This document shows positions 8,217 to 18,488 of a stretch of DNA of 41,019 nt, one piece after another. This DNA comes from Terrimicrobiaceae bacterium (GTDB lineage: Bacteria > Verrucomicrobiota > Verrucomicrobiia > Chthoniobacterales > JAATET01). Numbering within the stretch: the first letter of the stretch is position 1; every line of letters starts with the position of its first letter. A model generated the notes under the pieces. It was given only the letters and a program-made list of their open reading frames with translations. It had not been told where the DNA came from and searched no databases. The DNA lies in NCBI GenBank assembly GCA_028713285.1, contig JAQTOP010000023.1, positions 1 to 41,019 on the forward strand. The letters run 5' to 3'. The translations under genes were made by a program, and so were the position numbers.

Positions 8217-10904
8217 TTACCCGGAGGCCGAATGAGCGAGCAATCCGACGACTGTCATATTCCCGGCGATGATGTCGTGGGGGATGATCGCATACTGCCA
8301 CGGCTTCCCGCCGTAAGTCTTCGCGTGGTCGCTGGCGTGCTCGCACCACTGCTCGGCCACCGCTTTTTTTGCAAGCACATCCTCGCTCGTCATCTCGTTA
8401 CGTGCTTTTGGTTCGAGCATGTAAATGGCGCTCTCGGTCTCCGCGACAAAATCCGGTTGGTATTCGGGATGGTCCGCGCCCGATTTGTAGTAAATCTGAA
8501 ACTGCCCCTTGGCGGGCTTGAACCACTTGGTCGCGTCGCGTTCGAGGATCACTGCAAGTTTTCGCTCTGCGTCGGAGTGAAACTTTTGAACGGCATAAAG
8601 ACACTTGGTAAATCCGCCAAAAAGATACTTCGCCATGTTGCTCTTGTCGGCAGGCGACACGCGGAAATCGAGCGGCGGTTCGCTGGCAGCGGCGCTGTAG
8701 GCGCTCGGCTTGAGGTCGGTGAAGCCTTTGCTGATCTTGACCTCGAAACCCTCGGCTTCCTCCCAGTAGTGCGTCTGCATCTGCGTGTGGATGGACTTCG
8801 CGATGTCGCGCTGGTAACAGCGCAGCACCTTTCGCGTGTCGTCCTCGCTCAGGTATCCGCGGAAATGGGAAACGGTCTGGCTGGCCAGCTCGTAGAGCAG
8901 ATCGGCATGGGCGTCGTAGGAGATGTCGTCGAAGTCCACGAGGCCGCTCACCACGTAGTCTTCGAGCCTGGATTCCTCGATGCCGCCACGGCCGAGCGTC
9001 AGGACTTCGTGCTCGTTGGTGCGGAGATACTGCGCCCAGAGTTCGTCGGTGAACGGTGGGTAGCGCAGCGTCTTGAGGTCGAGCGTGAATGGCTTGAAGC
9101 CAGATGTCGTTTCGCCCCGCGGAACCACAAGAATTCGCGGAATATCGATGGTCTGCTGGGTGACCAAGGCAGACGTTTTCGCCACGATCGCGGCAATGTC
9201 CGGCGGCTTGGTCACCGCCTCCATTTCGAGCTGCGTGGGGCGATATTCTTCCGCAACCCGAGCGACAATCTCGGATTGAACGTCCGGCCGATTGAGGAGT
9301 GTGAGGCTGGGGAGCGTCTTTGGCTGGTTTTCCAGCCTGCGGATTACATCACGGGTGATTTGAGCGAGCTTCTCCTCGGCGGAAGTTTCGAAGGCGCGGG
9401 GCTGATCCTTACCGGCCACCTGCGTGCTGGCGCTCGTATGCGCCGGCTGAACGCCTAGCATGCTGTCCAGCCGCGATTGCGAAACGACGGTCACGGTCTT
9501 CTGCGCGATCTGCTCGGGATCGAGCACCAGCGTCTGCAGGCGGATCGGCGAGTCCGACTTCTTCGCGTCCTCGACGATTTCCTGGAAGCGGTCGTGCGCG
9601 ACGATGTTCAGGCGGTCCACGGCGGCGACGCCGGTGCGTTTGCCGTAGGGCAAGCGCAGGCCGCGTCCGATGGATTGCTCGATGAGGATGCGGGCGTTCG
9701 CCGCGCGCAGCGGGACGATGGTGTAGAGGTTCGTCACGTCCCAGCCCTCCTTGAGCATGTTCACGTGGATCACGATCTCCGTGGGCTCGTCGGCGTGCTC
9801 CACTTTGAGCAAACGCTCGACCATCTCGTCTTCCTCCGCGCCCGTCTTGCTGGAGTCCACCTGGATCACGCGCTCCTTGTAACGTCCCTCGAAGAACCCT
9901 TCCGACTGGATCAGCGTGAGAAGCTGTGCCGCGTGCGTGATGTCCCGCGCGATCACGAGCACGAAGGGCTTCACGATTTGCTGTTCGGTTTCGCGCGCGT
10001 AAGTTTCGAGCTGCACTTTCACCTGCTCGTGCAGGCGCACGCCGTCCTCCAGCTTGAGGCGCTCGATTTCCTCGGGCGACATGCCGGCGGGGTTGAAGTT
10101 CTTCCGCGTCACCACGGCCGGTTCCTTCACGAAGCCATCGGCCAACGCCTTGCCCAAGGCGTAATCGAAAATGATGTTCTTGAAAGCCACCGGCCCGCGC
10201 GGGCCTTCCACGAAAGGCGTGGCCGTCAGCTCCAGTCCGATCACCGGCTTGAGTTCGTTGATCGCCCGGACGCCGGAGGAGGCGCGGTAGCGGTGCGACT
10301 CGTCCATGAGCAGCACGAGGTCGCTCAGTCCGGCGAGATACTCGAAGTAGCTTTCGCCGATGTATTCGGCCATCCGCTTGATCTTCGGTGACTTTCCGCC
10401 GCGCACCTCGGAGTTGATCTTCGAGATGTTGAAGATGTTCACCTTGCAGCGCAGCACCTGGTCGAAAAGCGTGCCCGCCTTCCCCTCGTAGTTGTCGCCC
10501 GTGATGATCTCCGGCGTGTCGATGGCAAACTCCGCGATGCCCTTGAAGACATACTTCGGCGTGTTCGGGGTGAAGTCGGCGATGAGCTTGTTGTAGATCG
10601 TCAGGTTCGGCGCGAGGACGAAGAAATTGTTCAGCCCGTGGGCGAGGTGGAGGTAGGCGATGAAGGCGCCCATCAGCCGCGTCTTGCCTACGCCCGTCGC
10701 CAGCGCGAAGCAGAGCGACGGAAACTCCCGCTCGAAATCGGTGACGCTCGGAAACTCGCTGCGGATCGCATCCAGCGCTGCTGTCACGCTCGCGCCTTTT
10801 TTCGGCGGCGCGATTTCGGTGATGCGGTCGAGGATTTCGAGCGAACGCCGCTGGGGCGGGCGAAGGCTGAGGCGGCCAGCGATGGCGTTGACGTGGCGGT
10901 TCAT
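8217..10904 (-). CDS. res: Type III restriction enzyme Res subunit (SF2 helicase plus nuclease)
   Basis: The 895-aa protein acts with Mod to translocate along and cut unmodified foreign DNA. SF2 motifs are visible: Walker A ATGVGKT (69-75), DESH (201-204), motif III LTATPF (226-231) and motif VI QSIGRGLRLPYG (from 410). The C-terminus carries a PD-(D/E)xK-type nuclease: PDF with Asp818, then Glu831-x-Lys833 in LEPKA. Length and order match type III Res proteins (PF04851-like core). It is the last gene of the operon. Its ATG overlaps the GxxExxY stop as ATGA (10901-10904) and no Shine-Dalgarno precedes it, so translation probably depends on coupling. In most type III systems res directly follows mod; here GxxExxY lies between them. 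All catalytic motifs look intact, so it is probably active. Confidence 0.93.
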   Translation of the reverse strand: MNRHVNAIAGRLSLRPPQRRSLEILDRITEIAPPKKGASVTAALDAIRSEFPSVTDFEREFPSLCFALATGVGKTRLMGAFIAYLHLAHGLNNFFVLAPNLTIYNKLIADFTPNTPKYVFKGIAEFAIDTPEIITGDNYEGKAGTLFDQVLRCKVNIFNISKINSEVRGGKSPKIKRMAEYIGESYFEYLAGLSDLVLLMDESHRYRASSGVRAINELKPVIGLELTATPFVEGPRGPVAFKNIIFDYALGKALADGFVKEPAVVTRKNFNPAGMSPEEIERLKLEDGVRLHEQVKVQLETYARETEQQIVKPFVLVIARDITHAAQLLTLIQSEGFFEGRYKERVIQVDSSKTGAEEDEMVERLLKVEHADEPTEIVIHVNMLKEGWDVTNLYTIVPLRAANARILIEQSIGRGLRLPYGKRTGVAAVDRLNIVAHDRFQEIVEDAKKSDSPIRLQTLVLDPEQIAQKTVTVVSQSRLDSMLGVQPAHTSASTQVAGKDQPRAFETSAEEKLAQITRDVIRRLENQPKTLPSLTLLNRPDVQSEIVARVAEEYRPTQLEMEAVTKPPDIAAIVAKTSALVTQQTIDIPRILVVPRGETTSGFKPFTLDLKTLRYPPFTDELWAQYLRTNEHEVLTLGRGGIEESRLEDYVVSGLVDFDDISYDAHADLLYELASQTVSHFRGYLSEDDTRKVLRCYQRDIAKSIHTQMQTHYWEEAEGFEVKISKGFTDLKPSAYSAAASEPPLDFRVSPADKSNMAKYLFGGFTKCLYAVQKFHSDAERKLAVILERDATKWFKPAKGQFQIYYKSGADHPEYQPDFVAETESAIYMLEPKARNEMTSEDVLAKKAVAEQWCEHASDHAKTYGGKPWQYAIIPHDIIAGNMTVVGLLAHSASG

Positions 10905-11341
10905 AGGGACACGTCTGTTTGAACCACAGATTCCCGCTGATTCTCGCAGATGGAGGAGCCGGAATGAACCAGGCGTTTATACTCCAGCGAGCGGGGCGAG
11001 AAGTTGACGATGATGGAGCGTTGCAGGCCGGTGATGCGCAGATGGTTGAGGACTTGGGCCTGTTCGATCGGGCCGATTTCCTGGATCGCCTTGCACTCCA
11101 CGAGAACCGTCCCGAAACAGACAAAATCTGCCTTGTAGAAGCTCGGCAGAACGCCTCCTTTGTAGCGAACTTGCAGGAGTTTCTCGCGCTCGAACGGAAT
11201 GCGCCGGGAGGCGAACTCGACCGCCAGTGCGTCCTGATAAACTGCCTCCAAAAAGCCGCCGCCTAATTCCCGATGCACTTCCATCGCCGCGCCGATGATG
11301 GCGAACGTCTCCGGGTCTCGATGTTTTGAATCTGCGTTCAT
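10901..11341 (-). CDS. GxxExxY protein (PD-(D/E)xK-like), bounded by repeat arms
   Basis: The 146-aa protein shows the family's naming motif at residues 29-35 (GFLEAVY). It is followed by a nuclease-like core, YKADFVCFGTVLVECKA, with Asp72 and Glu82-x-Lys84 in PD-(D/E)xK spacing. The typical closing motif VNFSPRSLEYKRLV is also present. No biochemical role is established to my knowledge, so nuclease activity is inference. The ATG (11341-11339) lies inside one arm of a repeat (11329-11359). The last coding residues (SICENQRESVV) are encoded by the opposite arm (10922-10952). Those residues extend past the usual end of the family and resemble SICENL-type peptides made from the same repeat elsewhere. 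The left arm begins on the mod stop codon, and the gene's own stop overlaps the res ATG. This looks like a cassette dropped between mod and res. Confidence 0.88.
   Translation of the reverse strand: MNADSKHRDPETFAIIGAAMEVHRELGGGFLEAVYQDALAVEFASRRIPFEREKLLQVRYKGGVLPSFYKADFVCFGTVLVECKAIQEIGPIEQAQVLNHLRITGLQRSIIVNFSPRSLEYKRLVHSGSSICENQRESVVQTDVSL
10922..10952. repeat. Repeat arm at the 3' end of the GxxExxY gene
   Basis: A 31-base arm, inverted relative to 11329-11359 (23 of 31 positions match) and in the same orientation as the left arm of the compact palindrome in the helicase gene (24 of 31). It encodes the C-terminal ICENQRESVVQ of the GxxExxY protein, the counterpart of ICENLCESAVE in the helicase. 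It ends 18 bases before the res start codon. Confidence 0.78.
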
Positions 11342-11359
11342 CTGCGTAAATCTGCGGTT
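11329..11359. repeat. Repeat arm at the 5' end of the GxxExxY gene
   Basis: A 31-base arm that differs by a single base from the right arm of the compact palindrome in the helicase gene. On the minus strand it starts on the last two bases of the mod stop codon and includes the GxxExxY start codon and its first codons (MNAD). Three GCAGAT words occur at 10-base spacing. No Shine-Dalgarno is visible in it. Confidence 0.85.
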
Positions 11360-12974
11360 AAAAAAGGTCTTGTTGCCCGGCCTTGGGTGGCGCTTTGGGC
11401 AGGTTCTCCACGTCGAGGCTGTAGTCGTCGTGGCCCCACTCGCAGCGGCTGAGCACCTGCTTGGGAATCTTCTTCACCGTCAGGTTTTCGTAGCGGTCGG
11501 TCTTGCCGCGGAAGGCGGGGCAGAGCACGAGCAGCGAACGCTCCGACCCCACTTCATCGCTGAGCTGCGCGAGCTGCTCGTGGCCGAGTTGCGCGGTCGT
11601 CACGTAGAGAAAATCCCGCTCCGTCGAGTGGCCGTGCTGCCAGTAGATCGCGTCACTTGGCGCATAGTTGAAGCCCTCCAGTTTGCACAGCGCCTCGGCG
11701 AGCATTGCGGCGTTGTATTGCCGGTTAATGACCCAGTTGCCCCACTTGTCTTTCTCCAGCAGCGAAGGCGCGAGGTTGTAGTAACGAAAGCCGCCACCGC
11801 CCTTCCAACCCTCGGCTTCGGTGATGCCACCGGAGTCTGCGCCATCAATGACCTTCTTCAAGCGCGGAACGATATGCGTGTCGGCGGTTCCCTCGACTTC
11901 GACCATGATCCAGCGCCGCCCCATTTTCTGCGCGACCGCACCCGTCGTTCCTGAGCCCGCAAACGAGTCGAGCACCAAGTCGCCTCGATCCGTGGCTATT
12001 TGTAGAATTCGCTGAAGCAGCCGCTCCGGCTTAGGTGTAGCGAATGGTTCAATGTCTGGGAGGAGTTTGCGTAGATGATCACGTCTCGCTTCCTGATTCG
12101 AGCCTACTTCGTCTGCTGACCACCAAGTCTTAGGAACGATACCGTCTTTGATGTCGGAAAGGAACTTCTTGATGATCGGCAGTCTGTTGCCGTCTTTCCC
12201 GAAATATACCCGCTTGTCAGCAAGCGCTGCCTCGAAAGTCTGTTTGCTAAAGCGCCAAAAGTTACCACTCGGCGGAGTGACCGTCCGTCCCGACGGTAAC
12301 GTAATAGGGTAGCGCAGGCTTTCTCCTCCGCTCTTTGCCGTTCCGTCAGCGCCTTGCCTCCAAGGGCCACGAGGATCGTTGTCGGGATTTTGATAACGCT
12401 CGAGCTGCTGTTCAGTTCTCTTAAGTAGGTTGCGCGTCTTCCGCCACACCTCCTTCTCTTTCGCATAGAGTAAAACGTAGTCGTGAGAGGAAGAAATATC
12501 GGTGTCATTTTTTCGACCGCTATCCTTCTCCCACACCATTGACGCTACGAAGTTAGTACGGCCGAAAATTTCATCGCACATCACTTTGAGGTAATGGCAC
12601 TCATTGTCGTCGATCGTGATCCAAAGTGAGCCATTTGGAGCGAGTAGCTTATGAATCAGCTCAATGCGTGGTCGCATTAGGGATAACCAAAGCGAATGCT
12701 CAATTCCGTCGTCGTAGTGCTCAAAAGCGCTGCCCGTGTTGTAAGGCGGATCAATGAAGATGCACTTCATCTTACCCGAGAACTCCTGCTCCAGCGCCTT
12801 GAGGGCGAGTAGATTGTCGCCGTGGATGAGCCGGTTGTCGAAAAGGTCGCCGTCGGTGACGCGATGCTTGGCGTGATACGACTTGGCCGGGTCTTCGAGC
12901 AGGATGCGCGGCTCCAGCTTTGGCCGGTTCTCCTTTCCGATCCAGGTCAGTTCTAGTTTCTGTTTCTTACTCAT
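11358..12974 (-). CDS. mod: Type III DNA methyltransferase Mod subunit (beta class)
   Basis: The 538-aa S-adenosylmethionine-dependent DNA methyltransferase, predicted to make N6-adenine marks, both protects self DNA and supplies target recognition to Res. The catalytic motif DPPYNTG (75-81) comes before the AdoMet motif FAGSGTTG (338-345), the beta-class order typical of type III Mod. The segment between them (about 150-300) should contain the target recognition domain. The N-terminus (MSKKQKLELTWIGKENRP) and the NRLIHGDNLLALKAL lead-in are typical of the family. The ATG overlaps the upstream gene's TGA as ATGA (12971-12974). Base composition drops in the middle of the gene (about 46% G+C over 12481-12660 by hand count) against about 62-65% at both ends. 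This suggests exchange of the central part by recombination. Confidence 0.94.
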   Translation of the reverse strand: MSKKQKLELTWIGKENRPKLEPRILLEDPAKSYHAKHRVTDGDLFDNRLIHGDNLLALKALEQEFSGKMKCIFIDPPYNTGSAFEHYDDGIEHSLWLSLMRPRIELIHKLLAPNGSLWITIDDNECHYLKVMCDEIFGRTNFVASMVWEKDSGRKNDTDISSSHDYVLLYAKEKEVWRKTRNLLKRTEQQLERYQNPDNDPRGPWRQGADGTAKSGGESLRYPITLPSGRTVTPPSGNFWRFSKQTFEAALADKRVYFGKDGNRLPIIKKFLSDIKDGIVPKTWWSADEVGSNQEARRDHLRKLLPDIEPFATPKPERLLQRILQIATDRGDLVLDSFAGSGTTGAVAQKMGRRWIMVEVEGTADTHIVPRLKKVIDGADSGGITEAEGWKGGGGFRYYNLAPSLLEKDKWGNWVINRQYNAAMLAEALCKLEGFNYAPSDAIYWQHGHSTERDFLYVTTAQLGHEQLAQLSDEVGSERSLLVLCPAFRGKTDRYENLTVKKIPKQVLSRCEWGHDDYSLDVENLPKAPPKAGQQDLF

Positions 12975-13552
12975 GCGCCGTGCCGCACTCGCTGTTCGAG
13001 TGTGCCCCAGAAATAGCGGAAGGATGTCGAGTGCGGTTGCGCGCGGGCGGGGCTGAACTTTGGAGCGATGTCCTTGGCGAAGGCGATTTCATTGAACGAG
13101 GCGTGCTGCCCAAAGTGGGTCTTGTAGAGCCTGCGAAGCCGTCCCTTGGCCACGCTGCGGGTATCCTCCGGCCCGGCCCACTCACAGCCCGGCATGACGG
13201 ACTGGATGGCTGCGGCGTCCGCGAGAAACCACGATTCAATCTCCTTGATGGCGACGCACACATGGAAGGAGCGGGCCGCACGCTCGCCCACTCGGGCGAC
13301 GGCGCGCACGGCGTCGTCGAAAAGCTCCAACACCGCCGTGACGCAAGGATCGTCGTCCATATCCACGAGGGTGAAGCCGGCGGCGTAGTGGCAATCGCAG
13401 AAGCTCTCGATCAAGCGGGGCGTTTCGCGGATGAGCTTGTCGCGGTTCTTCATGTTGCGGACATCGAAGCGGTGGCCGCGGAAATGTTTGTGGAGAACCT
13501 TGTCCCAGAATTGGTAATCGGAAGGCCCTTCGACGCCGACGCCGATGGTCAT
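12971..13552 (-). CDS. DUF4276-type, TOPRIM-like protein paired with AAA ATPase
   Basis: The 193-aa protein starts MTIGVGVEGPSD and carries residues arranged like a TOPRIM fold: Glu8 in VEGPSD, the acidic cluster VDMDDDP (63-69) and IKEIESWFLAD (102-112). Together with the following PEDTRSVAKGRLRRLY stretch these match my recollection of DUF4276. Proteins of this kind are usually encoded next to an AAA ATPase of the RecF/OLD type, as here. TOPRIM-like partners in such pairs (RloB, the AriB partner in PARIS) act as nucleases or effectors in phage defence. That function is inferred for this protein. The start at 13552 is favoured by GGGAGG 6 bases upstream and an ATGA overlap with the ATPase stop. 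Its own stop overlaps the mod start in the same way, so expression should be tightly coupled to both neighbours. Confidence 0.82.
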   Translation of the reverse strand: MTIGVGVEGPSDYQFWDKVLHKHFRGHRFDVRNMKNRDKLIRETPRLIESFCDCHYAAGFTLVDMDDDPCVTAVLELFDDAVRAVARVGERAARSFHVCVAIKEIESWFLADAAAIQSVMPGCEWAGPEDTRSVAKGRLRRLYKTHFGQHASFNEIAFAKDIAPKFSPARAQPHSTSFRYFWGTLEQRVRHGA

Positions 13553-14766
13553 GGAATCCCTCCCAACGTGCCTTGCTCCCAAAGTTCACCGAGGCGGAAG
13601 TGTTTGCGGAACGAATCCACCTCCGCCACGGCGGATGCCTGCCGCACTTTGGTGATACCGTCCTCCTTGTCGCAAAGGATCACTTCGGAGGGTTCGAGTT
13701 CGTCGAGGAAATCGGGGTTGTGCGTGGTGGCGAGCACCTGGCTGTGTGTCGAGGCGGTGCGCAACAGCTCGACGACGTTGCGCGCGAGATGCGGATGCAG
13801 GCCGGTTTCCGGCTCCTCGATGGCGACGAGGCTGGCGCGCTCGGCGGACCAATAGACGATGACCATGAGCGCGAGGAGACGAACGGTGCCATCGGACGCG
13901 GCACGGGGATTGATGCCAGCACGAAGACGTTCCTCGATGATCTGAAAAGTGCGTTTGCCCTCCACCTCCAGCGGACGGGAGCGAACGCCTTTGAACGAGG
14001 GAACCGCGCCGCGCAGCCCTTGGATAAGGTTATTGATGCCGCCGTTTCCACTTTTCTCCATCCGATGAAGGATGGTGGCGAGAGCTTCGCCGGCTTCACC
14101 CAAGTCCGGGTCCACGACATCCTTGCTGGCCTGCCGGACGACATCGGGATTGATGTTGAAGAACGACCAACGCTCGATGAAGCGACGGAAGCGCCCGACG
14201 ACCGGGCCGATGAAACTGCTGCCCGCGACGAGGCGCGTGGAGTCGTCTTCCTCGATGGCGTGCTTCCGCGCGTCGGGATCGGACAACGGATCGAGCACGG
14301 TGAAGGACTCGCGCGAGCGATTGAGTTGGAAGGTGGCGGTTTCCTTGTTCGGAAGCGCAAGTTCCGCATCGAGGTGTTCCGAGAGAACGACGGGGACGCC
14401 ATCGCTCGCGCGCAAGTCGATCTCCACCCGGTAGTGGTAACTGGAAATGGAATAGATGACTCCCTGCCTGCTACGAAAGCGCCCCGTGGGCACTTTCACC
14501 CGCAACGTGATGCGGAGCGGCTTCGGCGTATCGCGCTCGCGCAGGATTTTGTTCCGCACCTCCCCGGTTCCGCCGTATTCGTTGGCCGCCACCTCGACGC
14601 TTTGGAGCATGGCGATCTTGAGGAAGCGCAGCGCGGAGATGAGGTTCGTTTTGCCGGACGCATTGGCGCCGACGATGAAGTTCAGCGGACACAGCGCGAG
14701 CGGGGACATTCCGGAGCCGAAGCTCTTGAAGTTCTCGATGCGCAATTCGGTGATCATGGAAGGCAT
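13549..14766 (-). CDS. AAA family ATPase (AAA15/RloA-like), defence-associated
   Basis: The 405-aa ATPase is of the RecF/SMC-like type. The N-terminus ITELRIENFKSFG is followed by Walker A GANASGKT (33-40). After a central insert (about 70-280) come a signature-like ASDGTVRLL (290-298), Walker B IEEPETGLHP (316-325) and the switch THN (348-350), ending in FLDELEPSEVILCDKED. This layout matches AAA_15/AAA_21 proteins found with TOPRIM-like or DUF partners in defence loci (rloA near type I restriction genes, ariA in PARIS). It probably acts as a sensor that controls the downstream DUF4276 protein, which is inference. The gene lies 22 bases after the helicase stop and overlaps the DUF4276 start by 4 bases. 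ATG 14757 (MITEL) is an alternative start. Confidence 0.88.
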   Translation of the reverse strand: MPSMITELRIENFKSFGSGMSPLALCPLNFIVGANASGKTNLISALRFLKIAMLQSVEVAANEYGGTGEVRNKILRERDTPKPLRITLRVKVPTGRFRSRQGVIYSISSYHYRVEIDLRASDGVPVVLSEHLDAELALPNKETATFQLNRSRESFTVLDPLSDPDARKHAIEEDDSTRLVAGSSFIGPVVGRFRRFIERWSFFNINPDVVRQASKDVVDPDLGEAGEALATILHRMEKSGNGGINNLIQGLRGAVPSFKGVRSRPLEVEGKRTFQIIEERLRAGINPRAASDGTVRLLALMVIVYWSAERASLVAIEEPETGLHPHLARNVVELLRTASTHSQVLATTHNPDFLDELEPSEVILCDKEDGITKVRQASAVAEVDSFRKHFRLGELWEQGTLGGIP

Positions 14767-14788
14767 GGTTGTAGTGGCGGCCGGGAGA

Positions 14789-17680
14789 TTATTGCAAATG
14801 CCACCTTACGATGAAGAGGGGGCAAAGCGATGTCTTCTGCGCGAGCTTGCCCTCGATGGCGGCGATGAGTTCTTCGCGCTGGCGATCCACCTGATCCTGC
14901 GCCTCGAAGAGTGATTTGCGCTTCGCATTCCGCTGGCTTTCCAAGGCGCGGATTTGCTTTTGCCCGGCGAGCTTTTCCTCCAGCGAGAGAGCGGTGGTCG
15001 CGGCGCGGCGCGCTTCCTTGATCTGGCGGTCGAGTTCCTTGATCTCTCGTTCAAGGCCGAGCTTGAGGTCGTCGGACCAGCCTTCGAGCTTCTCGGCCTC
15101 AGCCTCAAAGACCGCGGCGTTGCGCTGCGAGATGCCGCGCTGGATGGATTGCTGGCGCTGGCTGGTGAGTGCGCGGAGACTTTCAACCGCCGATTCACAC
15201 AGATTTTCGCAGATTCCTTCTCCTGAAAATCTGCGTTCATCTGCGTCAATCTGCGGTTTTACCTCGGCAGGCAGCGTGAGGAGGCGGGCGGCGGCTTCTT
15301 GCTCCAAGGTTTCGCCACCATCCGTCGCCGCCGCGAAGATGAGATGGTCTTCTGCCTGGTCGAGTGATTCGACGGTGAATAGCGAAAGCGTGAGCCAGCC
15401 GGTTTTGCCGCGGAGCGGTTCGAGCACGGTGACTTTGCCCTCGTGCTCCTCGTAGTGGAAGCGCAGCTCGGCCACGGGCAGCGAGCGATCCTTGGCCTGC
15501 GCGATGAGCGCTTCGGCGAGCGGGTGCTGGAGACGGAAAACGTGCGCCTCGCCGGTGCGGCGCGGGAGTTCGTAGAGGCCGAGCGGGATGTCGCCCTCGA
15601 ACGGGCACGAGTGCAGCCGAAACGAGGAGTCGTTGAGGAACTCGGCGTGTGACCCAAGCTCTTGCCGGGTGAGTTGCATGAGCAGGCGCTCGAAGCGGTT
15701 GAGATAGGCCCGCGAGGCTTCGTCGCGCACTTTCAATTTCTCGCGAACTTCGTCGTCGAAGTTTTCGAGCAACTGCTGCCGGGTCTTCGTCATGGCCTCG
15801 TTGATTTCGAGGCTGAGTTCGAGCTGGAGCTGATCGAAGGCGACACCGATTTCCTCCGGGCGGCGGCAGCGCTGGTAGATGTCGGCGATGCGCTTCTCGA
15901 AATCGACGCCGGACTCGATGGTCCCGAGGACTTCATCGCTCGCGCCGAAGACGCCCTCGAAGAGTTTGAATTTCTCGGACAGGAGCTGGAAGACGCGTTG
16001 ATCGGCGGCGTTGTTCTGGTTGAGGAAATTCACCACGACGACGTCGTGCTGCTGACCGTAGCGGTGGCTGCGGCCGATGCGCTGCTCGACGCGCTGCGGA
16101 TTCCACGGGAGGTCGTAGTTCACGACGAGCGAGCAGAACTGGAGATTGATGCCCTCCGCGCCGGCCTCGGTGGCGATGAGGATCTGGCCTTCCTCGCGGA
16201 AGTAATCGACGAGCGCCGAGCGCATGTCCGCCGAGCGCGAGCCGCTGATGCGGTCGGTGCCCGCGTGGCGGCTGACCCAATCCGCGTAAATCTGCTTCGA
16301 GCGGTCGTCGTTGTTCGAGCCGTTGAAGAGCACGAGGCCGTCGCGAAACGGGCTATCGGCGAGCACGCGGAGCAGGTAGCTTTGCGTGCGGCGGGATTCG
16401 GTGAAGATGATCGCCTTGCGCGCCGCGCCCAATCGATGCGCCTCGGCGAAGGCGCGATCCAAGGCGACAAGCAACGCCTTGCCCTTGGCGTTTTGCTCGA
16501 TCGAGAGCGCAAGCTGACTGAAGCCATCGAGGTCATTCACCTCCTGCTGAATGGCGGCGCGGTCCTCGGCGGAAAGCGGCTCGGCTTCGCCCTCGTCCGG
16601 CCATTCCTCGGCGGTTTCGTCGAGCGCCTCGTAGTCTTCGTCGAGTTCGTCTTCGAGCGGCTGCGCGGGCGGCTGGTCGCGGATTTTGTCGCGCAAACGC
16701 TTGCCGATGGTTTCGAGCGCGCCGGCGATGGCGTAGGTGGAGGAAGCGAGTAGCTTGCGCAGGACGAGGGTCATCAGCGAACGCTGGCTCGGCGGAAGCG
16801 CCTGGAGATTGTCGCGGCGCAGGTAGTCGGAGACGAGATTGTAGAGCCGGTCCTCGCTTTCTTCCGGGGTGAACGGCTGCACCATCGGATGACGCCGCGT
16901 GTAGCGAACGTAGGGGAGCACTTGCCGGCGGAGGGTCCGGTGGCAGACGGGCTTCAGCCGGGCCTTTAGCGTCTGGAAAACCTGCTCCTGACTGAGATTG
17001 GTGAACTGATCGCGGAAGCTCTTGAGATCACCAAACGTGTGCTCGTCGATGAAGCTAACGAGGCCGTAGAGTTCGAGCAGCGAGTTTTGCAGCGGCGTCG
17101 CGGTGAGGAGCAACTTGGGCGCGTTGTTCAGCGCGAGCTTGAGCGTGTTCGCGATGACGTTGGACGGCTTATAGACGTTCCGCAGGCGGTGCGCTTCGTC
17201 GATGACGACGAGATCCCACGCGATGTTGCTGATGCTGTCCGCTTTGCCCTTCGCGAACTGGTAGGAGCAGATGATGATGTCCGCTCCCTCAAACGGGCGC
17301 AGATTTCCGGCGCGAATCGTGGCGTTGTAGGACTTCGTTTCGAGGATGCGGCACGGGAGAAAGAACTTCTCGGTCAATTCCTGATACCATTGTTTCCGCA
17401 GATTCGACGGTGTGATGACCAGGATGCGCCGCTTCCGCTCCGCCCATTTCTGCGAGAGCACGAGCCCGGCTTCGATGGTCTTTCCAAGGCCGACTTCATC
17501 CGCGAGCAGCGCGCCTTTCGAGAGCGGTGACTGAAACGCGAACAAGGCCGCATCGACTTGGTGGGGGTTGAGGTCAACTTGGGCACCCGCCACCGCTCCC
17601 GCCAGCTTTTCAAGACTGTCCGACGAACACCGCTTGGTAAGCTCGTAAGCGAAATACTTGGCGTGATAAGCCGTCAACAT
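14789..17680 (-). CDS. SNF2/RapA-type helicase, first gene of the defence operon, with a repeat-encoded insertion
   Basis: The 963-aa SF2 ATPase starts MLTAYHAKYFAYELTKRC. Motifs: Walker A DEVGLGKT (61-68), DEAH (161-164), LTATPLQN (192-199). The helicase C domain has AEGINLQFCSLVVNYDLPWN and QRIGRSHRYGQ (about 533-545). A long charged coiled coil closes the protein. Related SNF2 enzymes, such as DISARM DrmD and helicases next to type III-like mod/res pairs, act in phage defence as translocases. Residues about 808-832 (QIDADERRFSGEG then ICENLCESAV) are encoded by a 74-base palindromic repeat, read in frame without a stop. This looks like a tolerated insertion just before the coiled coil. Upstream in-frame ATGs would run into the divergent membrane protein gene, so ATG 17680 is preferred. 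Confidence 0.9.
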   Translation of the reverse strand: MLTAYHAKYFAYELTKRCSSDSLEKLAGAVAGAQVDLNPHQVDAALFAFQSPLSKGALLADEVGLGKTIEAGLVLSQKWAERKRRILVITPSNLRKQWYQELTEKFFLPCRILETKSYNATIRAGNLRPFEGADIIICSYQFAKGKADSISNIAWDLVVIDEAHRLRNVYKPSNVIANTLKLALNNAPKLLLTATPLQNSLLELYGLVSFIDEHTFGDLKSFRDQFTNLSQEQVFQTLKARLKPVCHRTLRRQVLPYVRYTRRHPMVQPFTPEESEDRLYNLVSDYLRRDNLQALPPSQRSLMTLVLRKLLASSTYAIAGALETIGKRLRDKIRDQPPAQPLEDELDEDYEALDETAEEWPDEGEAEPLSAEDRAAIQQEVNDLDGFSQLALSIEQNAKGKALLVALDRAFAEAHRLGAARKAIIFTESRRTQSYLLRVLADSPFRDGLVLFNGSNNDDRSKQIYADWVSRHAGTDRISGSRSADMRSALVDYFREEGQILIATEAGAEGINLQFCSLVVNYDLPWNPQRVEQRIGRSHRYGQQHDVVVVNFLNQNNAADQRVFQLLSEKFKLFEGVFGASDEVLGTIESGVDFEKRIADIYQRCRRPEEIGVAFDQLQLELSLEINEAMTKTRQQLLENFDDEVREKLKVRDEASRAYLNRFERLLMQLTRQELGSHAEFLNDSSFRLHSCPFEGDIPLGLYELPRRTGEAHVFRLQHPLAEALIAQAKDRSLPVAELRFHYEEHEGKVTVLEPLRGKTGWLTLSLFTVESLDQAEDHLIFAAATDGGETLEQEAAARLLTLPAEVKPQIDADERRFSGEGICENLCESAVESLRALTSQRQQSIQRGISQRNAAVFEAEAEKLEGWSDDLKLGLEREIKELDRQIKEARRAATTALSLEEKLAGQKQIRALESQRNAKRKSLFEAQDQVDRQREELIAAIEGKLAQKTSLCPLFIVRWHLQ
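15185..15258. repeat. Compact palindromic repeat inside the helicase gene
   Basis: Two 31-base arms, 15185-15215 and 15228-15258, are inverted copies of each other (25 of 31 positions match) around a 12-base loop. Each arm contains the word GCAGAT repeated at about 10-base spacing. The right arm matches 30 of 31 bases of the arm at the start of the GxxExxY gene (11329-11359). The left arm matches 24 of 31 bases of the arm at that gene's end (10922-10952). The element is read through in frame by the helicase gene. Confidence 0.85.
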
Positions 17681-17834: not shown

Positions 17835-18488
17835 ATGAATACCGAAGTCGTCGCCGAGCCTGCCATCGCCATGGAGCTGGCCCGTCGCACGCGCAACCCG
17901 CTGCGCAAGCTTTACTACTGGACGCTTCACTGGGCCGGCACGCGCTATGCCATTCCGGCGCTGTTCGTCATTTCGTTCGCCGAGGCGTCGTTCTTCCCGA
18001 TCCCGCCCGACGCGCTGCTGCTGCCCATGTGCTTCGCCCGTCCGAAGAAATGGTTCGTCTATGCGTTCTGGTGCCTGGTTGCCTCCGTGCTCGGCGCGAT
18101 CGCCGGCTGGACGATCGGCCTCTATTTGTGGCACGCCGTCTCGGGATTCTTCTTCCACTGGATTCCCGGATTCACGCCCGAGCGGTTCGAGAAAATGAGC
18201 GCGCTCTACCAGCAATACGGCTTCTGGATCATCATGGTGAAGGGCCTCACGCCCATTCCGTTCAAGCTCATCACGATCAGCGCCGGGGCCTGCCACGTAT
18301 CCCTGCCGACGCTCGTGGTCGCGGCGATCATCAGCCGCGGAGCCCGATTTTTCCTGCTCGCGGGGATGGTGCGCGCATTCGGGGAGGCGGTGAAGCCCTT
18401 CCTCGAGAAGTATCTCGACTGGGTGCTGCTCGCGTGTTTCGTGCTCTTGATCGCCGGCCTTTTCGCGCTGAAGTTTCTGCCGCATTGA
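17835..18488 (+). CDS. YqaA/DedA-type (SNARE-associated, VTT) membrane protein
   Basis: The 217-aa integral membrane protein carries the family features. FAEASFFPIPPDALLLPMCF is a re-entrant region with the F-P-I-P-P-D turn. GAIAGWTIGLYLW is the glycine-rich helix. VKGLTPIPFKLITISAGACH is the second conserved hairpin (about 135-155). A final hydrophobic helix is DWVLLACFVLLIAGLFALKF. DedA/VTT relatives are linked to lipid flipping and membrane homeostasis; the exact substrate here is unknown. ATG 17835 is chosen because upstream codons in this frame look non-coding. Only 154 bases separate it from the divergent defence operon. Its stop lies 4 bases before the DUF502 start, so the two are almost certainly co-translated. 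Confidence 0.88.
   Translation: MNTEVVAEPAIAMELARRTRNPLRKLYYWTLHWAGTRYAIPALFVISFAEASFFPIPPDALLLPMCFARPKKWFVYAFWCLVASVLGAIAGWTIGLYLWHAVSGFFFHWIPGFTPERFEKMSALYQQYGFWIIMVKGLTPIPFKLITISAGACHVSLPTLVVAAIISRGARFFLLAGMVRAFGEAVKPFLEKYLDWVLLACFVLLIAGLFALKFLPH

Follow-up and report, generated by a model that had tools for sequence, protein, structure and literature searches.

The window, the whole stretch of 41,019 nt that was analysed, contains a SNF2/DrmD-like helicase gene holding a 74-bp hairpin and, about 4 kb from this hairpin, a GxxExxY gene lying between matching inverted ends. The features concerned are as follows.

8217 to 10904, minus strand: ResIII/helicase gene, directly downstream of the GxxExxY element
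10901 to 11341, minus strand: GxxExxY protein gene, 146 aa, predicted PD-(D/E)XK nuclease fold (TIGR04256, PF13366)
10919 to 11362, minus strand: gene-bearing element, the GxxExxY gene between matching ends, inserted between the DNA methylase and type III-like res/helicase genes
10925 to 10951, plus strand: right end of the GxxExxY element, units CACAGAT, CGCTGAT and CGCAGAT, spacing 10,10; encodes ICENQRESVVQ
11330 to 11356, minus strand: left end of the GxxExxY element, CGCAGAT three times, spacing 10,10; encodes the MNAD start
11358 to 12974, minus strand: DNA N6/N4 methylase gene, directly upstream of the GxxExxY element
14789 to 17680, minus strand: SNF2/DrmD-like helicase gene with the insert; its ATG lies at about 17680 and the open frame begins at 17908
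15185 to 15258, minus strand: gene-less hairpin element, 74 bp, made of a left end, a 14-nt loop and a right end
15188 to 15214, plus strand: second arm of the hairpin, units CGCCGAT, CACAGAT and CGCAGAT with linkers TCA and TTT, spacing 10,10, two mismatches
15229 to 15255, minus strand: first arm of the hairpin, CGCAGAT three times with linkers TGA and GAA, spacing 10,10, no mismatches

The ResIII helicase, DNA methylase, AAA (AbiEii-like) and SNF2/DrmD-like genes between positions 8217 and 17908 form a probable defence island.

Analysis of the hairpin sequence indicated that the 74-bp inverted repeat runs exactly from 15185 to 15258, opening with AACCGC and closing with GCGGTT. Folded as RNA it gives a single long hairpin (-39.3 kcal/mol, z -7.8), and folded as DNA it reaches a z of -7.5; no curated Rfam family matched positions 10800-15400 at E values up to 0.1. 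On the helicase (minus) strand the repeat is translated as KPQIDADERRFSGEGICENLCESAV, which corresponds to residues 808-832 if Met 77 of the open frame (about 17680) is taken as the helicase start. The first-pass annotation had placed the palindrome at these residues without frameshift or stop, and both coordinates and translation proved exact; the likeness that it had seen between ICENLCESAVE in this peptide and ICENQRESVVQ at the GxxExxY C-terminus was borne out by the two translations. An MNAD-type start had also been read on the other strand, and all six frames had been thought to be tolerated in coding sequence. Neither holds, as NRRLTQMNADF is encoded by the helicase strand in a different frame and stops occur in two of the six frames, leaving four open.

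The helicase reading frame spans 1039 codons, and its sequence indicates a protein related to DISARM DrmD that is not a member by the NCBIfam model (689 bits against a cut-off of 950). Among 286 genomes searched within the same class, 24 had a match to the helicase, the own genome included. The hairpin peptide was looked for as a conserved part of these orthologous helicases and is absent from all aligned relatives (more than 20), including the closest one at 92% identity. The linker in which the peptide lies, ahead of a probable coiled coil, is variable and measures 41 residues in the window against 25-26 in closer relatives. Alignment at the DNA level revealed that the 74-bp insert stands in for about 29-30 nt of this linker, giving a net gain of 45 nt with the frame kept. 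The hairpin is thus an insertion into the helicase, as had been suggested, accompanied by local replacement; the clean gap of 70-80 bases expected in orthologues was not seen, since about 30 nt of linker were replaced. Excision of the insert from the mRNA, as in 23S intervening sequences, was rejected because loss of 74 nt would break the frame, whereas the net 45 nt keeps it. A second helicase copy in the own genome (G000:C102:3402-6281) is 55% identical and carries two in-frame TAG stops.

The arms of the hairpin have the same units and the same spacing as the ends of the GxxExxY element, so that the hairpin corresponds to the two ends of the element minus its gene. The peptide likeness between helicase and GxxExxY protein follows from this, because both translate the same kind of DNA end, and does not reflect convergence. 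When the 3.5-Mb genome was searched for CGCAGAT triplets at spacing 10, allowing three mismatches at most, seven places were found against none for a reversed control, and four of the seven are the two hairpin arms and the two ends of the window GxxExxY unit. The TTAACC edge of the left end supplies the stop codon of the upstream methylase. PF13366 is the only gene between the ends, with no known transposase (DDE, HUH, serine or tyrosine recombinase) there. The own genome also has another gene-less hairpin, between genes read as rplT and pheS. One of its other GxxExxY elements (L011) has matching ends built of a unit (GGAAAGGGAG...) that is atypical and does not fit the CRCNRAK pattern, and three loci on contig C48 of the same assembly (L006, L007 and L008 in G000:C48) form a tandem array of units of about 190 bp, each mixing CACAGAG, CACCAAG and CGCAGAT arm types.

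The window GxxExxY protein is a clear member of TIGR04256 (130 bits against a cut-off of 35, E 5e-38) and of PF13366, PDDEXK_3 (116.8 bits against a cut-off of 22, E 9e-34); no account of the ends or the mobility of this family was found in the literature searched. Alignment of 67 GxxExxY proteins showed that G29, E32, Y35, D72, E82 and K84 are common to all, the PD-(D/E)XK catalytic residues E32, D72, E82 and K84 thus being invariant in 67 of 67 sequences. An AlphaFold2 model (pLDDT 89) retrieved SSO0001, LHK-Exo, RecE and other Cas4/RecB-type nucleases in a fold search, and we are confident that the modelled fold is a nuclease fold closest to this type. A weak sequence match to T7 endonuclease I (E 0.2) was left unused, the fold search favouring Cas4/RecB-like nucleases.

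For comparison of the ends, 187 GxxExxY loci were taken (5 from the own genome, 30 and 100 from the class, and 52 from named genomes of many phyla), of which 184 were usable. When the two flanks were compared for their best inverted match, the median score was 19.5 at the own locus and 8.0 with flanks swapped between loci; scores of at least 14 were reached by 78% of the 184 loci and by 5.7% of swapped ends. The TIGR02436 family had been chosen as the control and failed, its genes having inverted arrays as well, so regions 600 bp upstream were used instead, and these reached 14 in 1% of cases. About 22% of the GxxExxY loci are without clear matching ends, which was counted against a mobile-element reading.

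A clear triple was present at both ends of 92 loci; their unit consensus, C-R-C-N-R-A-K, is in part imposed, since the filter accepted only C at position 1 and only A at position 6. The consensus is the same at both ends in 79 of these loci, with units spaced at 8-10 nt, and the spacing pair agrees between the ends in 89%, against 18% when ends are swapped and 22% when swapped within one genome. Unit and spacing vary between loci, yet agree at the two ends of one locus. A TTTAAC-like edge opens both ends, and the similarity stops there, about 6 nt outside.

Between the two ends of one element the unit letters agree in 94% and the linkers in 50%, the latter being close to the 39-48% found among unrelated loci with the same unit. 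Conservation of base pairing was rejected as the cause of the matching arms on account of these linkers; units and spacing, not pairing, appear from the sequences to be under selection and are the likely objects of recognition, because the linkers between the units are not matched.

Mapped on the protein tree, unit position 7 shows 5 changes (32 after shuffling), unit position 4 shows 16 (36 shuffled) and spacing 32 (57 shuffled), while the host-genome label changes 24 times against 26 shuffled and is scattered as by chance. The ends go with the protein lineage and not with the host. The window GxxExxY protein itself shares 66-78% identity with relatives from other organisms, a Wenzhouxiangella among them, and only 24-37% with the four further copies of its own genome; the nearest named relatives of its gene are from Verrucomicrobia.

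Pattern searches for the CGCAGAT unit type found 1438 occurrences of CGCAGAT-N2-3-CGCAGAT in 178 genomes with GxxExxY and 33 in 108 genomes without it. Genomes with at least 10 such pairs numbered 23 among the former and none among the latter, the maximum being 202. Many GxxExxY genomes have few copies in this count, as is expected because other unit types exist. In the set of 92 loci, 84 elements closely follow a co-directional open frame (at least 80-100 codons), mostly at 40 nt or less, compared with 42 for the other side, and the TTTAAC edge sometimes provides the stop codon of the preceding frame; operon structure alone accounts for part of this bias. The spanning of open reading frames by other hairpins is an uninformative measure in GC-rich DNA. 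No GxxExxY copy was found in phages, and plasmids gave only 8 records.

Comparison of orthologous junctions among relatives indicated that purQ-purL, cysS-acyltransferase and mod-res are empty, hairpin-only or gene-bearing depending on the relative, such filled and empty sites being what is expected of an IS with its MITEs. At purQ-purL the own genome has a GxxExxY element and so has G035, there with other units, while the congener G076 has a gene-less hairpin and G227 and others are empty. At mod-res, which holds the window element in the own genome, L290, L292 and L293 are empty with about 17 nt between the genes, and L295 and L297 carry at the same position a different GxxExxY (27-28% identical) with other, CACAAAG-type ends. 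At this junction L295 contains an additional hairpin and one more gene, and L294 has another gene there. At cysS-acyltransferase the orthologous gene occurs in three congeners with CGCAGAT units in one, CACGGAT units in the others and equal spacing. At rplT-pheS four congeners (L320-L324) have a hairpin whose units differ between them and match within each, one being degenerate; two of these hairpins end in T-runs and may be terminators or attenuators. Since orthologous sites differ in their units between species, plain cut-and-paste fails unless insertion or replacement is repeated, and either recurrent insertion or replacement at favoured sites or a concerted rewriting of units is needed. 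No target-site duplication was visible at mod-res or in the helicase, the relatives compared being strongly diverged.

Given that the sequences show an insertion, ends in common, ends coupled to protein lineage and variable occupancy, we consider it probable that the 74-bp repeat is a MITE-like, gene-less copy of a minimal one-gene mobile element served by the GxxExxY nuclease. The full element would be one GxxExxY PD-(D/E)XK nuclease gene between two inverted ends, each with TTTAAC at its edge and then three units of 7 nt (C-R-C-N-R-A-K) spaced 8-10 nt, with unit and spacing particular to each element lineage and equal at both ends. We infer mobility from the sequence comparisons. The nuclease, as the putative mobilising enzyme, would recognise the arrayed units and cut or resolve DNA at the two ends, whereby anything between them, gene or no gene, would be copied or moved and would land for the most part directly behind stop codons. 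The copy in the helicase, gene-less and of one lineage with the neighbouring GxxExxY element (CGCAGAT, spacing 10,10), would have landed in the variable linker, replaced about 30 nt with the frame retained, and been translated.

A different origin for the hairpins would be repair or replication (quasi-palindrome correction, slippage or template switching) with homogenisation by host enzymes, GxxExxY being a passenger or tolerant of them. Such a process would suit the agreement of units and arms within an element even though orthologous elements use different units, as well as the unrelated loops of gene-less hairpins and the roughly 30 nt replaced in the helicase. It is unlikely, as palindrome correction would equalise the linkers too and these agree in only 50%, the ends track protein lineage across genomes and not the host, and the repeat is nearly missing from genomes without GxxExxY. 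The ends might instead be binding sites of a regulatory or defence system (autoregulation, restriction) and the hairpins decoys or regulatory sites with no part in a mobile element. The often operon-like position of the gene right after a stop codon, with 84 of 92 following a co-directional frame, and the methylase, res, AAA and SNF2 neighbours typical of defence would agree with this; we regard it as rather improbable, because housekeeping genes, purQ and purL for example, flank the element as well, one genome can hold about 200 unit pairs, and sites filled in some relatives are empty in others.

The first-pass annotation had compared the repeat to the RPEs of Rickettsia, which are described as palindromic, in-frame inserts in variable linkers of functional-looking genes (PMC2229807, PMC10969869). 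The comparison stands for the outcome, a palindrome translated in frame within the variable linker of a functional-looking coding gene, and fails for the machinery, as a matching gene-bearing element was found. The hairpin lies outside Rickettsia and has 74 bp against 105-146 bp for RPEs. A stand-alone, RPE-like protein-coding palindrome unrelated to any gene is therefore disfavoured and very improbable: the hairpin ends match the unit and spacing of the gene-bearing element in the same window, and the other hairpin copies examined are mostly between genes. For a chance palindrome or a conserved part of the helicase nothing was found in favour. The former is ruled out by the fold (z -7.8) and the lack of any match to the control pattern, and the latter fails because no related helicase has the peptide; together they can be considered refuted.

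Compared with known systems, the MITE-like copy of a one-gene element that we favour resembles IS and their MITEs in its single gene with inverted ends on either side, in short gene-less derivatives that share these terminal inverted repeats, and in filled and empty sites. It differs in that the gene encodes a predicted PD-(D/E)XK nuclease without a known transposase domain, each end consists of three short units whose sequence and spacing are lineage-specific, and the gene-less copies share ends but not loops, which are unrelated to one another, so that simple internal deletion from one master does not account for these copies. REP/REPIN sequences with RAYT likewise consist of a single nuclease gene flanked by palindromic repeats thought to be spread by RAYT, with many non-autonomous copies. 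A single nuclease gene flanked by palindromic repeats and many gene-less copies are also found for GxxExxY, whereas RAYT is a Y1 HUH enzyme, of which none lies between the ends, and unit structure and period differ. The one-gene GxxExxY element is apparently widespread and undescribed.

It would explain where a very common class of interspersed hairpins in bacteria comes from and which enzyme may serve them, and would turn a nuclease family that is uncharacterised and was seen here in many phyla into a mobile-element system open to testing. As the ends are variable and go along with the protein, every element lineage would amount to a natural experiment in DNA recognition, and the helicase case illustrates how such elements may add peptides to conserved proteins. 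Beyond this, we put forward tentatively, as a possibility towards which we do not yet lean, a single reading in four parts: GxxExxY elements would be a new class of mobile DNA in which one PD-(D/E)XK nuclease spreads DNA between three-word arrays, word and spacing would co-evolve with the nuclease and be rewritten in concert at both ends, gene-less hairpins would spread in trans, including into coding genes, and TIGR02436 genes between 7-nt arrays would form a second, parallel class.

The TIGR02436 genes (four-helix-bundle, 23S intervening-sequence) at L251-L280 are flanked by inverted arrays of a locus-specific unit and, with these arrays, would be a second element class of the same design. 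The heptameric repeats of Beggiatoaceae, such as TAACTGA (PMC4679880), may be related to the TIGR02436 arrays, which we offer as a suggestion only. TIGR02436 genes resemble GxxExxY genes in being bounded by inverted arrays of a unit particular to the locus, and differ in protein family and in period, which is 7 in 21 of the 26 TIGR02436 loci scoring at least 14 and 8-10 in GxxExxY ends.
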